Assembly: GCF_001704275.1 (NCBI RefSeq)
Contig: NZ_CP011533.1
Span: 3,472,001 to 3,536,000, forward strand
Source of the DNA: Streptomyces noursei ATCC 11455
Lineage (GTDB): Bacteria > Actinomycetota > Actinomycetes > Streptomycetales > Streptomycetaceae
Reading direction: 5' to 3'
Length of the DNA: 64,000 nucleotides
The notes below the pieces were generated by a model, which was given only the letters and a program-made list of their open reading frames with translations, ran no database searches and was not told where the DNA came from. Position 1 is the stretch's first letter. Every line of letters starts with the position of its first letter. Shown piece by piece: positions 18,615 to 21,655 of the stretch. The translations under genes and the position numbers were made by a program.

Positions 18615-19553
18615 GTGTCAGTCGACGTCGACAAGCCGGCCGAGCCGCCGGCGTCCGCTCCGCCGGCCCAGCCCGAGCCCATCAAAGCCATACCGGTCCG
18701 CCATTACGGGCGCTGGGTCGCCGCCCTCGTCGTCATCGGGCTGCTGGTCCTGCTCGTCCGGGCCTTCGCCTCCGGGAAGGTCAACTGGGGCGCGATACCG
18801 GAGTACATGTTCAACGCGGACATCCTCAAGGGCCTGCGCAACACCCTGTGGATCACCGTGCTGTCGATGGTGATCGGCATCGTGCTGGGCGTGGTCCTGG
18901 CCGTCATGCGGCAGTCCAAGAACCCGGTCACCAAGTCCGTCGCGTGGTTCTACGTCTGGTTCTTCCGCGGCACCCCGGTCTACGTCCAGCTCTTCCTGTG
19001 GTTCAACCTCGGCCTGGTCTTCCAGTACATCGACATCATGCCGATCTACAAGGACGAGTGGTCGGACTTCATGACCCCGTTCCTGTGCGCACTGCTCGGC
19101 CTCGGCCTCAACGAGGCCGCGTACATGGCCGAGATCTGTCGGGCCGGCCTGAACGCCGTCGACGAGGGCCAGACCGAGGCGGCGCACGCGCTGGGCATGA
19201 GCCACGGCAAGACGCTGCGCCGGATCGTCGTGCCGCAGGCGATGCGGGTGATCGTGCCGCCGACCGGCAACGAGGTCATCAACATGCTCAAGACCTCGTC
19301 CCTGGTGATCGCGGTGCAGTACTACGACCTCCTCCAGGCCGCGCAGAACGTCGGCCGGGACTCCGGCGTGGTGGTCGAGATGCTGATCCTGGCCGCCGCC
19401 TGGTACCTGATCGCCACGACGGTGCTCAGCATCGGCCAGTACTACCTGGAGCGCTACTACGCCCGCGGCTCCAGCCGCCAGCTTCCGCCCACCCCGTTCC
19501 AGCGCGTCAAGGCGAAGCTGGCCGGCCCGAACCGCGCCGGAGGTACGGCATGA
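18615..19553 (+). CDS. Polar amino-acid ABC transporter, permease
   Basis: The protein has 312 residues, from the GTG at 18615. A cytoplasmic Pro-rich N-terminus is followed by about five or six membrane helices. HisM/GlnP-type permease motifs are present: [37 protein letters not shown], and the EAA loop [30 protein letters not shown], which contacts the ATPase. It probably functions as a homodimer because only one permease gene is present. It overlaps the ATPase gene by 4 nt (ATGA). Confidence 0.93.
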
Positions 19554-20359
19554 GCAAGACCACGAGCACCACCGCGGAGAAGGACTCCGCCGAGGCCACC
19601 GTCCCGATGGTGAAGGCCGAGGGCGTCCACAAGTCCTACGGCACCGCGCACATCCTCAAGGGCATCGACCTGGAGGTGGCGCCCGGCGCGGTCTTCTGCC
19701 TGATCGGCCCGTCCGGTTCCGGCAAGTCGACGTTCCTGCGGTGCATCAACCACCTGGAGAAGATCAACGCCGGCCGGCTGTCGGTCGACGGCGAACTGGT
19801 CGGCTACCGCGAGCACAACGGCAAGCTCTACGAGCTGCGCGACCGCGAGGTCGCCGCCCGCCGCCGGGACATCGGCATGGTCTTCCAGCGCTTCAACCTC
19901 TTCCCGCACATGACCGCGCTGGAGAACATCATGGAGGCGCCGGTCCAGGTCAAGGGCGAGTCCAAGACGGCCGCGCGGGAGCGGGCGGGCGCACTGCTGG
20001 AGCGGGTCGGGCTGGCCGACAAGGCCGGCAACTACCCCTCGCAGCTCTCCGGCGGCCAGCAGCAGCGGGTGGCGATCGCCCGGGCCCTGGCCATGGAGCC
20101 GAAGCTGATGCTCTTCGACGAGCCGACCTCGGCCCTCGACCCGGAGCTGGTCGGCGACGTCCTGGACGTCATGAAGGACCTGGCGGCCGACGGCATGACG
20201 ATGGTCGTGGTGACCCACGAGATGGGCTTCGCCCGCGAGGTCGGCGACTCCCTGGTGTTCATGGACAACGGCGTGGTGGTGGAATCCGGCCACCCGCGCG
20301 ACGTCCTCACCAACCCCCAGCACGAGCGGACCCAGTCGTTCCTGTCCAAGGTGCTTTGA
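19550..20359 (+). CDS. Polar amino-acid ABC transporter, ATP-binding subunit
   Basis: The protein has 269 residues, with its start overlapping the permease stop. It is a GlnQ/HisP-type ATPase. Walker A is [17 protein letters not shown], the Q loop is [18 protein letters not shown], the signature is [17 protein letters not shown], Walker B is [14 protein letters not shown], and the switch His lies in VVVTHEMGF. It powers the importer. The operon ends here; no simple terminator is obvious in the first 50 nt, and the repeat array starts about 55 nt downstream. Confidence 0.95.
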
Positions 20360-20415
20360 CGCCTGACGGCGGGGTGGTCCCGATACGCCTGTCCGCCTGA
20401 CGGCGGATGGTTGCG

Positions 20416-20487
20416 GGTCCGCTGCGCGGGGCGGGTCCGCTGCGCGGGGCGGTTCCGCTGCGCGGGGCGGTTCCGCTGCGCGGGGCG
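20416..20487. repeat. Four tandem 18-bp units
   Basis: Four head-to-tail copies of an 18-bp unit (GGTCCGCTGCGCGGGGCG, with GT for GG in the last two) lie just downstream of the ABC ATPase gene. Two copies in inverted orientation occur at 20802-20837, on the far side of the hairpin cluster. It is not coding. Confidence 0.9.
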
Positions 20488-20503
20488 GTTCGACAGCGGT
20501 GCC

Positions 20504-20573
20504 GGGGGTGCGGGGTTGGGGTTGTCCGGACTGCTGTCGCTTTACGTCCGGACAACCCCAACCCCGCACCCCC
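20504..20573. repeat. Perfect 28-bp-stem hairpin A with conserved loop
   Basis: Bases 20504-20531 are exactly complementary to 20546-20573. This is a 28-bp perfect stem around the 14-nt loop TGCTGTCGCTTTAC (20532-20545). Read on the minus strand the loop is GTAAAGCGACAGCA, flanked by GGAC and GTCC. Hairpin B (20729-20778) has the same loop design. It could terminate the ABC operon, but its perfection and the shared loop point to a specific repetitive element. Confidence 0.9.
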
Positions 20574-20601
20574 GTCCCCTCCCGTAGGTGGTCATGAAAA
20601 C

Positions 20602-20691
20602 GGTGAGTGGGGGCGCATGCCGGTGGCCCCCTGCGAGTTCGTTGTCGAGTGGTGACCGTCACCGGACCACCGGCATCAGCCCCCGCTCACC
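20602..20691. repeat. Imperfect 25-bp inverted repeat, centre of the cluster
   Basis: Bases 20602-20626 pair with 20667-20691 at 23 of 25 positions (one of them G-T). The pairing probably continues outward through GAAAAC versus TGTTTC. The 40-nt interior contains a smaller hairpin GGTGAC-C-GTCACC (20651-20663). It lies between hairpins A and B. Confidence 0.8.
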
Positions 20692-20717
20692 TGTTTCCTC
20701 ACCCCACAACGGGAGGG

Positions 20718-20789
20718 GACGGGCCGGAGGGGGTGGTGTGCAGGACGTAAAGCGCCAGCAGTCCTGCACACCACCCCCGCAGGCCCGTC
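20718..20789. repeat. Long hairpin B with the same conserved loop, opposite orientation
   Basis: The inner stem 20729-20746 / 20761-20778 is 18 bp and perfect. An outer stem 20718-20725 / 20782-20789 adds 8 bp across a 3x3 internal loop. The loop is GTAAAGCGCCAGCA (20747-20760). It is 13 of 14 identical to the reverse complement of hairpin A's loop, whereas the stem sequences differ. Both have GGAC before and GTCC after the loop. Confidence 0.9.
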
Positions 20790-20801
20790 ACCGCACCCAA
20801 C

Positions 20802-20837
20802 AGCCCCGCGCAGCGGATCCGCCCCGCGCAGCGGACA
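20802..20837. repeat. Two inverted copies of the 18-bp unit
   Basis: Two tandem 18-bp units (AGCCCCGCGCAGCGGATC, CGCCCCGCGCAGCGGACA) are the reverse complement of the units at 20416-20487. This makes the whole 20416-20837 stretch a nested mirror-image structure. Confidence 0.85.
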
Positions 20838-21034
20838 ACGCAAGACCCCGCCGCCAGGCGGGCCCGGCGGGCCCGGCGCCGCAGGCGCAAAACGGGCAAC
20901 CCCCACGGCGGGGGGGCAGCCGACAACGTGGGAGGGCAACCAAGCGCAGCAGAAGGGTCGTAATACCCTCGTAGTGACAACACCCATTACGCAGGTGGAC
21001 ACCGCACCCTGGACGCGTCCCGTAAGGACTACAA

Positions 21035-21655
21035 GTGGAACTGACCTATTACTCGGACTACGCCGTGCGACTGGTCAACACCGAGCAGCCCGAGCGCGGC
21101 GAGGACACCCTGACGTCGGTCGAGGCGGTCCGCGAGCTCTTCGGCGGCGCCCAGCAGGCCGCCCGGCGGGCCACCGAGAGCGACGTCACGCGGCTGCGCA
21201 CGGTCCGCGCCCGGCTCCGCGCGGTCTTCGAGGCCGCCGACCGCGGCGACGAGGTGCTCGCCGTGGACCTGCTGAACGCGCTGATGATGGAGTTCCCGGT
21301 CAGCCCACAGGTCTCCGGCCATGAGTACCGCGACGACGACGGGCGCCCCAAGTGGCACATGCACATCGCCGACCACGCCGCCAACGCCACCGCCGGCTTC
21401 ACCGCGACCGCCTGCATGGGCCTGGCCTTCCACCTCACCGAGCTCGGCGTGGACCGGCTGGGCATCTGCGAGGCCAAGCCCTGCCGCAACGCGTACCTGG
21501 ACACCTCGACCAACCGCTCGCGGCGCTACTGCTCCGACCGCTGCGCCACCCGCGCCAACGTCGCCGCCTACCGCGCCCGCAAGCGCCTGGAGAGCGGCCG
21601 CACCGCCGACAGCGCCCAGGAGCCCCAGGCGAGCGCGGCCCGCGGCGAGCGCTGA
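21035..21655 (+). CDS. CGNR zinc-finger / ABATE-domain putative regulator
   Basis: The protein has 206 residues. The GTG at 21035 has TAAGGAC about 8 nt upstream. The N-terminal part (YYSDYAVRLVNTEQPERGEDTLTSVEAV...) resembles ABATE stress-induced domains. The C-terminal part is a CGNR-type finger: GICEAKPCRNAYLDTSTNRSRRYCSDRCATRANVAAYRARK, with Cys pairs and a basic recognition segment. Such proteins are presumed DNA-binding regulators with no defined target. It lies just beyond the palindrome cluster. Its last 88 bp are also read on the other strand as the end of sodX. Confidence 0.85.
   Translation: MELTYYSDYAVRLVNTEQPERGEDTLTSVEAVRELFGGAQQAARRATESDVTRLRTVRARLRAVFEAADRGDEVLAVDLLNALMMEFPVSPQVSGHEYRDDDGRPKWHMHIADHAANATAGFTATACMGLAFHLTELGVDRLGICEAKPCRNAYLDTSTNRSRRYCSDRCATRANVAAYRARKRLESGRTADSAQEPQASAARGER

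Follow-up and report, generated by a model that had tools for sequence, protein, structure and literature searches.

A dispersed palindromic element with a near-constant loop on changing stems in Streptomyces noursei and some relatives

Two long hairpins with almost the same loop, found in the window (the whole 64,000-nucleotide stretch of Streptomyces noursei ATCC 11455 DNA analysed here), are the inverted arms of one non-coding element of about 600 bp, lying at about 20360-20958 (Table 1). The element is best read as a dispersed mosaic palindrome with BIME/REPIN-like architecture that would act as folded DNA and be homogenised by gene conversion, a reading to which we assign a probability of about 0.5. 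The original prediction had the hairpins right and missed the larger palindrome with its central hairpin and outer blocks, as well as the internal order of the 14-nt loop, GC-GNNA-GC.

Table 1. Parts of the element and the genes beside it, in window coordinates
Feature	Position	Strand	Details
ABC transporter ATPase gene (PF00005)	19550..20359	+	stop codon adjoins element
Left outer block	20360..20503	+	CCGCC-TGAC-GGCGG hairpin module, TGAC loop 20398-20401
Left outer block, 18-nt tandem units	20413-20484	+	built on CCGC-TGC-GCGG
Hairpin A	20504..20573	-	28-bp perfect stem 20504-20531/20546-20573, loop TGCTGTCGCTTTAC 20532-20545
Framework motif, left copy	20571..20585	-	CCCGTCCCCTCCCGT on +, ACGGGAGGGGACGGG on -; G000:C1:3492571-3492585
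Central imperfect palindrome	20590..20703	no strand	arms 20590-20629 and 20664-20703, 80% complementary
Framework motif, right copy	20709..20723	+	ACGGGAGGGGACGGG
Hairpin B	20715..20792	+	18-bp perfect inner stem 20729-20746/20761-20778 with outer extension
Right outer block	20793..20958	+	18-nt units 20803-20835
Right outer block, hairpin CCCGCC-GCCA-GGCGGG	loop 20853-20856	+	
Right outer block, hairpin GCGCC-GCA-GGCGC	loop 20881-20883	+	
Right outer block, remainder	within 20793..20958	+	CCCACGGCGGGG..CCGACAACGTGGG block, then CCAAGCGCAGC end block
ABATE/CGNR zinc-finger regulator gene	21035..21655	+	

Both hairpins lie within a single gap, from the end of the ATPase gene at 20359 to the start of the ABATE/CGNR gene at 21035, and their near-identical loops in a common GGAC/GTCC frame were confirmed by the sequence itself, by a repeat search and by folding. 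Hairpin A falls inside a 34-nt palindrome (94% complementary) and hairpin B inside one of 32 nt (91%). Read in the same sense, their loops are GTAAAGCGACAGCA and GTAAAGCGCCAGCA (the latter at 20747-20760, with the GNNA tip GCCA) and agree at 13 of 14 places; the minus-strand apical motif of hairpin A is GGAC-GTAAAGC-GACA-GCA-GTCC. With up to three mismatches allowed, the loop motif had 20 matches within the window against 4.8 expected from shuffles, the only exact ones being A and B and the remaining 18 carrying two or three mismatches. The segment 20480-20800 folded at -236.1 kcal/mol, compared with a shuffle mean of -153.4 (z -16.2; none of 100 shuffles was as good). None of the 60 Rfam matches at E up to 1 in 20201-21100 attained its gathering score or came close to it; 58 of them were to microRNA, one to lncRNA and one to antisense RNA models, and weak microRNA-model matches are as expected of a long GC-rich hairpin.

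Across the gap the parts are nested in palindromic order: outer blocks, hairpin A, framework motif, central hairpin, framework motif, hairpin B and outer blocks. The left outer block mirrors the right one and is common to other copies, and the flank common to the nearest relative (G311) resumes near 20959. In some other copies the central palindrome is wholly different in sequence, yet still palindromic. Loci L177 and L214, whose flanks are in common by eye, and L129, another copy, differ from one another in the sequence of the central hairpin; each has a long palindrome there, tipped with CCGCGCC/GGCGCGG in two of the three.

The loop remains nearly constant among copies while the stem next to it changes in a paired manner. 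Among 138 distinct loop copies, taken without any pairing filter, the loop sat on a perfect stem of at least 8 bp in 127, and 44 different stem strings (up to 14 nt) were represented. In 85 distinct stem-loops selected by a stem filter (net score of at least 8) plus the loop pattern, a selection that itself accounts in part for the constancy of loop and closers, the four loop-adjacent pairs were always C-G, A-T, G-C and G-C, and stem pairs 5-14 took two to four Watson-Crick types each and were 91-100% paired. Loops fetched without regard to the closers nevertheless had them in 22 of 22 cases in the own genome, 20 of 20 in G175, 7 of 7 in G191 and 75 of 82 in G194. When the 120 framework motifs were used as anchors, 18 had no long hairpin, and 101 of the 102 long hairpins carried a GT(A/G)AAGCG..AGCA loop in the expected sense (one had its reverse complement); many of these loci had originally been fetched through the loop or closers, and those fetched by flanks or framework agree. 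The loop GTGAAGCG accounts for two of the 101, and a short GAC-GAA-GTC tip for 6 of the 12 anchored exceptions listed. Covariation of the stems around a constant loop was also found at homologous loci, in keeping with the original prediction.

In the own genome (G000, S. noursei ATCC 11455, one contig of 9,815,884 bases), the loop pattern GTAAAGCG-N(0-3)-CAGCA has 22 exact copies, against none for the reversed control. One mismatch raised this to 23 matches against 6, and because of those 6 control matches the one-mismatch hits were not counted as copies. A whole-element search of the same genome returned at least 8 places matching at least 478 of the 641 query bases, the window included, and at least 66 matching pieces at E <= 0.001 (40 of 148 first-look candidates scored). 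The strict motif with closers occurred in 5 of 199 congeneric genomes, the own genome included, and the loop pattern with 0-2 free bases in 1 of 150 genomes of the family (the own genome) and in none of 112 genomes from 16 other genera; viral contigs gave no match to the strict pattern. The looser pattern was matched in 10 of 20 relatives, only four of which had more than two copies (G194, 82; G311, 44; G175, 20; G191, 7); G265 had one inverted pair, and the other single matches were at control level. The genomes behind the loci held 69 looser-pattern copies in S. nigrescens, 27 in S. noursei, 52 in S. endophytica and 31 in strain CT34. At least 120 stretches were found in a scan of named genomes, all 80 titles among the matches listed being Streptomyces; carriers among these matches include nigrescens HEK616, noursei A-2-1, endophytica HNM0140, albospinus, rhizoryzae, diastatochromogenes NRRL B-1698 and strains NRRL S-337, CB02959, NRRL F-4489 and CT34. 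The framework motif was present in 51 of 295 genomes, with at least 6 copies in 8 of them. The GCGAAGC loop variant escapes the strict pattern: G064 had one strict loop match against 40 framework motifs.

Judged by these counts of loop pattern and framework motif across genomes, the family is limited to some Streptomyces lineages, with large differences in copy number. The idea that the loop motif is dispersed in Streptomyces genomes was thus borne out for the own genome and some relatives, where it is multi-copy, and does not extend to the genus in general. Many G194 copies are found no more than 100 bases from a contig end (for example on C18, C21, C25 and C28); the element seems to break short-read assemblies, and because of these contig-end copies the G194 counts are probably lower bounds. 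No published description of the element was found in the titles and abstract starts of the open-licence literature.

The sites favour the 3' ends of genes, above all those of convergent pairs. With gene classes taken from a simple codon-based gene finder, 50 of 96 classed sites were convergent, 41 tandem and 5 divergent; 38 sites were excluded (one side geneless, gap too long or contig edge), and 2 lay inside a predicted gene. The corresponding numbers for 323 control gaps (at least 100 bp, loop-free, from the named loci) were 27, 197 and 99, giving Fisher p values of 3e-19 for the convergent excess and 3e-8 for the divergent deficit. None of the own and G311 sites read by hand was divergent, the script having called one own site so. 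A polarity of single arms towards gene ends was considered and dropped: 65 single arms showed no preference, the 3' end being on the outer side only in 13, on the inner side only in 17, on both in 30 and on neither in 5. The 17 own sites span 1.17 to 7.56 Mb, and no avoidance of chromosome arms is claimed, since the bounds behind its p value were set after the fact and S. nigrescens has copies near both contig ends.

Comparison with G311, whose ATPase gene is 97% identical to the own one, showed an element standing where the relative has a gene. At the window locus G311 lacks the element and has, between its ATPase and CGNR genes, a convergent methyltransferase gene; the window element stands where a gene of relatives is missing. 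The element stands in place of a gene at locus L037 as well, where each of the four gaps retrieved from non-carriers contains a transporter-like gene (MFS by eye). Eight of the 17 own sites are filled in both the own genome and the 20 G311 regions fetched. Of these eight sites, five carry the stem GTGTGCAGGAC in the own genome and seven carry GTGTGTCGGAC in G311; apart from one imperfect own copy, every such stem is paired with its own complement. By global alignment, core identity was 83% within the own genome (28 pairs) and 73% within G311 (45 pairs); between the genomes it was 66% for non-orthologous copies (76 pairs) and 66-69% for orthologous ones (4 pairs), with flanks at the four orthologous loci 86-94% identical by BLAST segments, a measure that differs from the global alignment of the cores. 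Orthologous copies are no more alike than non-orthologous ones, and concerted evolution is favoured over repeated independent insertion at the same sites. Part-elements or variants at common sites in G366, G137 and G390 suggest that the family is older than these species, and movement may be rare, since many sites are common to different species.

At locus L033 an ordinary hairpin terminator is present in all six element-free relatives and has been kept beside the element in the own genome and G311. The structured region GCGGGCCGGTCCGT..ACGGACCGGCCCG..TTCCACCATAACCCC between the two genes there (L352-L357) is likewise kept in 6 of 6 relatives, the own genome and G311, and looks more conserved than a plain terminator needs.

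The loop variants fit the grammar GT(A/G)AA-GC-GN(N)A-GC-A, and the variant cores GCGCAGC, GCGAAGC, GCGACAGC, GCGTCAGC, GCGCCAGC, GCGGCAGC and GCGATAGC all read GC-GNA-GC or GC-GNNA-GC. The same tips are enriched in the outer hairpins, on the strand that leads outward 5'->3', as they are at Streptomyces telomeres: in 178 arms oriented from the centre to the outside (stem of at least 4, 15-150 nt beyond the loop), 554 hairpins included 287 GNA, 71 GNNA, 4 TNC and 2 TNNC loops, compared with 26, 21, 30 and 24 of 926 in the window background and 32, 18, 9 and 7 of 354 at 185-320 nt out in the same loci. With a stem of at least 5, none of 72 hairpins in the 120 nt inward of the loop had a GN(N)A tip. 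The arm copies are related, not independent, and deduplication lowered the GN(N)A share from 65% to 34%; the deduplicated count (stem of at least 5) was still 22 of 65 against 18 of 309 (p 7e-9), with 3 TNC. A C-G pair closed 275 of 292 GN(N)A hairpins and 68 of 165 other loops in 133 arms. Matsunaga and co-workers (PMC4686876) describe DNA mini-hairpins of extraordinary stability that form when a GNA or GNNA loop is combined with two or more G-C pairs; for GCGAAGC the melting temperature is 78 C. The DNA folding program does not draw this mini-hairpin (the 13-14-nt loop stays open in its output, and GNA tips score no better than their complements), so that the case for the mini-hairpin is one of sequence grammar and published chemistry. 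The loop grammar, with its GNA/GNNA tips, C-G closure and strand polarity, fits DNA mini-hairpins better than RNA, and the RNA-protein recognition element named as one possibility for this loop in the original prediction finds no support here. Hairpins of the N4 and G4 type are possible parallels and are not used as evidence.

In the proposed mechanism, the arms would fold as DNA, by single-strand foldback or as a cruciform, when single-stranded or supercoiled. A putative protein recognising the GN(N)A tip and the GGAC/GTCC neck would fix the loop and may also promote copying to new sites. Gene conversion or template switching would keep the arms palindromic and alike within a genome, and palindrome repair together with gene conversion would let the stems change in matched steps. 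Copies would survive where they are least harmful, between gene 3' ends, and at two loci they sit where a gene of relatives is missing. Neither target-site duplication nor excision was seen, and no gene that could mobilise the element came to light.

The main alternative, possible but doubtful, is an RNA-level element, that is, a bidirectional terminator or mRNA 3' stabiliser between convergent genes, whose conserved loop would be a protein-binding site or would pair with the partner loop, the two loops being complementary on one transcript. The siting of the copies (50 of 96 convergent, only 5 divergent), the ordinary hairpin found at the same site in several element-free relatives and the extreme stability of the RNA fold all speak for it. 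However, the 20360-21030 segment contains no terminator-like site with a T run (0 sites); Streptomyces terminators may do without one. Against it also stand the ordinary terminator that persists beside the element at L033 in the own genome and G311, and the GN(N)A/C-G grammar and polarity, which fit the DNA rule. At least 49 of 60 GNNA tetraloops by copy (stem of at least 5) have C in the third place, not the GNRA of RNA, though 6 of the 14 distinct GNNA loops are also of the GNRA type. Ten of the 37 non-Watson-Crick stem cells (36 listed) would be G-U in the RNA strand of such an element, which likewise counts against it. Finally, for inverted repeats near terminators the spacer is reported to be the more polymorphic part (PMC13155455), and a constant loop is the reverse of this.

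The likeness to chromosome ends led to a further reading, which we consider unlikely: that the copies are internal telomere-type foldbacks, each arm being a substrate of a Tap-like or other GN(N)A-hairpin-recognising replication protein, and the whole a minute two-ended foldback unit with both ends outward, like a linear replicon, that the telomere or single-strand-DNA machinery of the host, and not a transposase, would spread and homogenise. Streptomyces telomere overhangs are described as forming hairpins with GCA loops that are closed by sheared G-A pairs and bound by Tap (PMC4513846). The two ends of the own contig (G000:C1; L372, L373) are identical over the 300 nt compared, and the contig therefore looks like a complete linear chromosome; on the outward strand of its telomere, alike at both ends, 6 of 11 hairpins had GNNA loops and one TNNC. 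The ends of G064 (both alike, GNA in 4 of 7 on the outward strand) and the left end of G395 (GNA in 7 of 7) complete the three chromosome ends with real foldback arrays, all with outward GN(N)A loops. In the contig ends of G392, G393 and G394 and the right end of G395 an array of this kind was absent, and these ends probably do not represent true telomeres. A genome-by-genome match between the loop types of element and telomere was looked for and was partial in the own genome (telomere GCCA 3, GTCA 3; elements GCA 48, GTCA 16, GCCA 6, GAA 4) and in G064 (GAA 3, GCA 1; elements GCA 15, GAA 3, GCAA 1) and absent in G395 (GGA 5, GTA 2; elements GCA 7, GAA 1). The window element lies at 3.49 Mb of the 9.82-Mb contig, not at a replicon end.

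A MITE moved by an ordinary DDE transposase, with the arms as terminal inverted repeats, would account for the inverted arms, for presence that differs between close relatives and for the G311 arm pair of about 207 bp (98.6% identical) that brackets about 700 bp with gene fragments. We think it quite improbable: the outer ends are not fixed, many copies have a single arm, the number of modules varies, no target duplication was seen at the one clear pair of filled and alternative sites, and at the window and L037 loci the element stands in place of a gene. The G311 pair (L309:1373-2447) has its inverted arms identical at 98.6% over 207 aligned columns, and the bracketed fragments resemble, by eye, a short-chain dehydrogenase and another gene. 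An autonomous copy was sought among widely spaced arm pairs and rejected; pairs lie 1.7-2.2 kb apart in L135, L219 and L226, of which L135, the one opened, holds an ordinary permease-like gene (by eye), and the G311 pair, 0.8 kb apart, holds the gene fragments (by eye). A purely mutational palindrome, made by template switching and gene conversion without selection on loop or structure, agrees with the strong homogenisation within genomes and with a central palindrome that is replaced wholesale and still palindromic, and is very improbable: nothing in such a process should preserve the 13-14-nt loop and its four closing pairs almost unchanged beside a freely changing stem, or confine loop variation mainly to the N positions of GN(N)A.

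A RAYT was also considered as the mobilising agent. PF01797 (Y1_Tnp) had no matches in the own genome, G064, G175 or G191 and one in G194, and a Y1/RAYT agent is therefore unlikely in the own genome. The first label given to the element, 'REP-like', was fair in that it is extragenic, multi-copy and made of palindromes that often form inverted pairs; taken strictly, the label does not apply, since the own genome has no Y1_Tnp match and the unit is about 600 bp long as against about 20-40 nt.

The family has conserved tips on stems that covary, and it evolves rapidly in concert; the rule that its tips follow, one known for DNA mini-hairpins, also holds for Streptomyces telomeres. If the hairpins do form as DNA in vivo, they would offer dozens of natural, variable substrates per chromosome for finding a tip-reading protein and would allow one to ask how a palindromic repeat spreads without a RAYT. 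The element also affects genome assembly and the annotation of convergent gene ends.

Several known systems resemble the element in part. Intrinsic bidirectional terminators are likewise stable hairpins between convergent genes, whereas the window copy has no T run, the loop of the element is conserved and the element is repeated with high similarity. Streptomyces telomere palindromes, which are 3' overhang foldbacks bound by Tap and were compared here by loop type and polarity, likewise have closely packed hairpins whose GN(N)A loops lie on the strand running outward 5'->3'; the element differs in being internal and dispersed, with two mirrored arms. CGTC-type palindromic repeats are also dimeric and palindromic and are said to lack a dedicated transposase, but their stems of 8-9 bp and loops of 4-5 nt are unlike those of the element, and the word Streptomyces does not occur in the main text of their description (PMC3733652). 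REPINs and BIMEs of Pseudomonas and E. coli are described as dispersed extragenic inverted palindromes with a spacer, compensatory changes and mosaic groups (PMC3116915; PMC2817692), features which the element shares. It differs from them in its length of about 600 bp, in its stems of 18-28 bp with GN(N)A tips and in the absence of Y1_Tnp from the own genome and three of the four other carriers.
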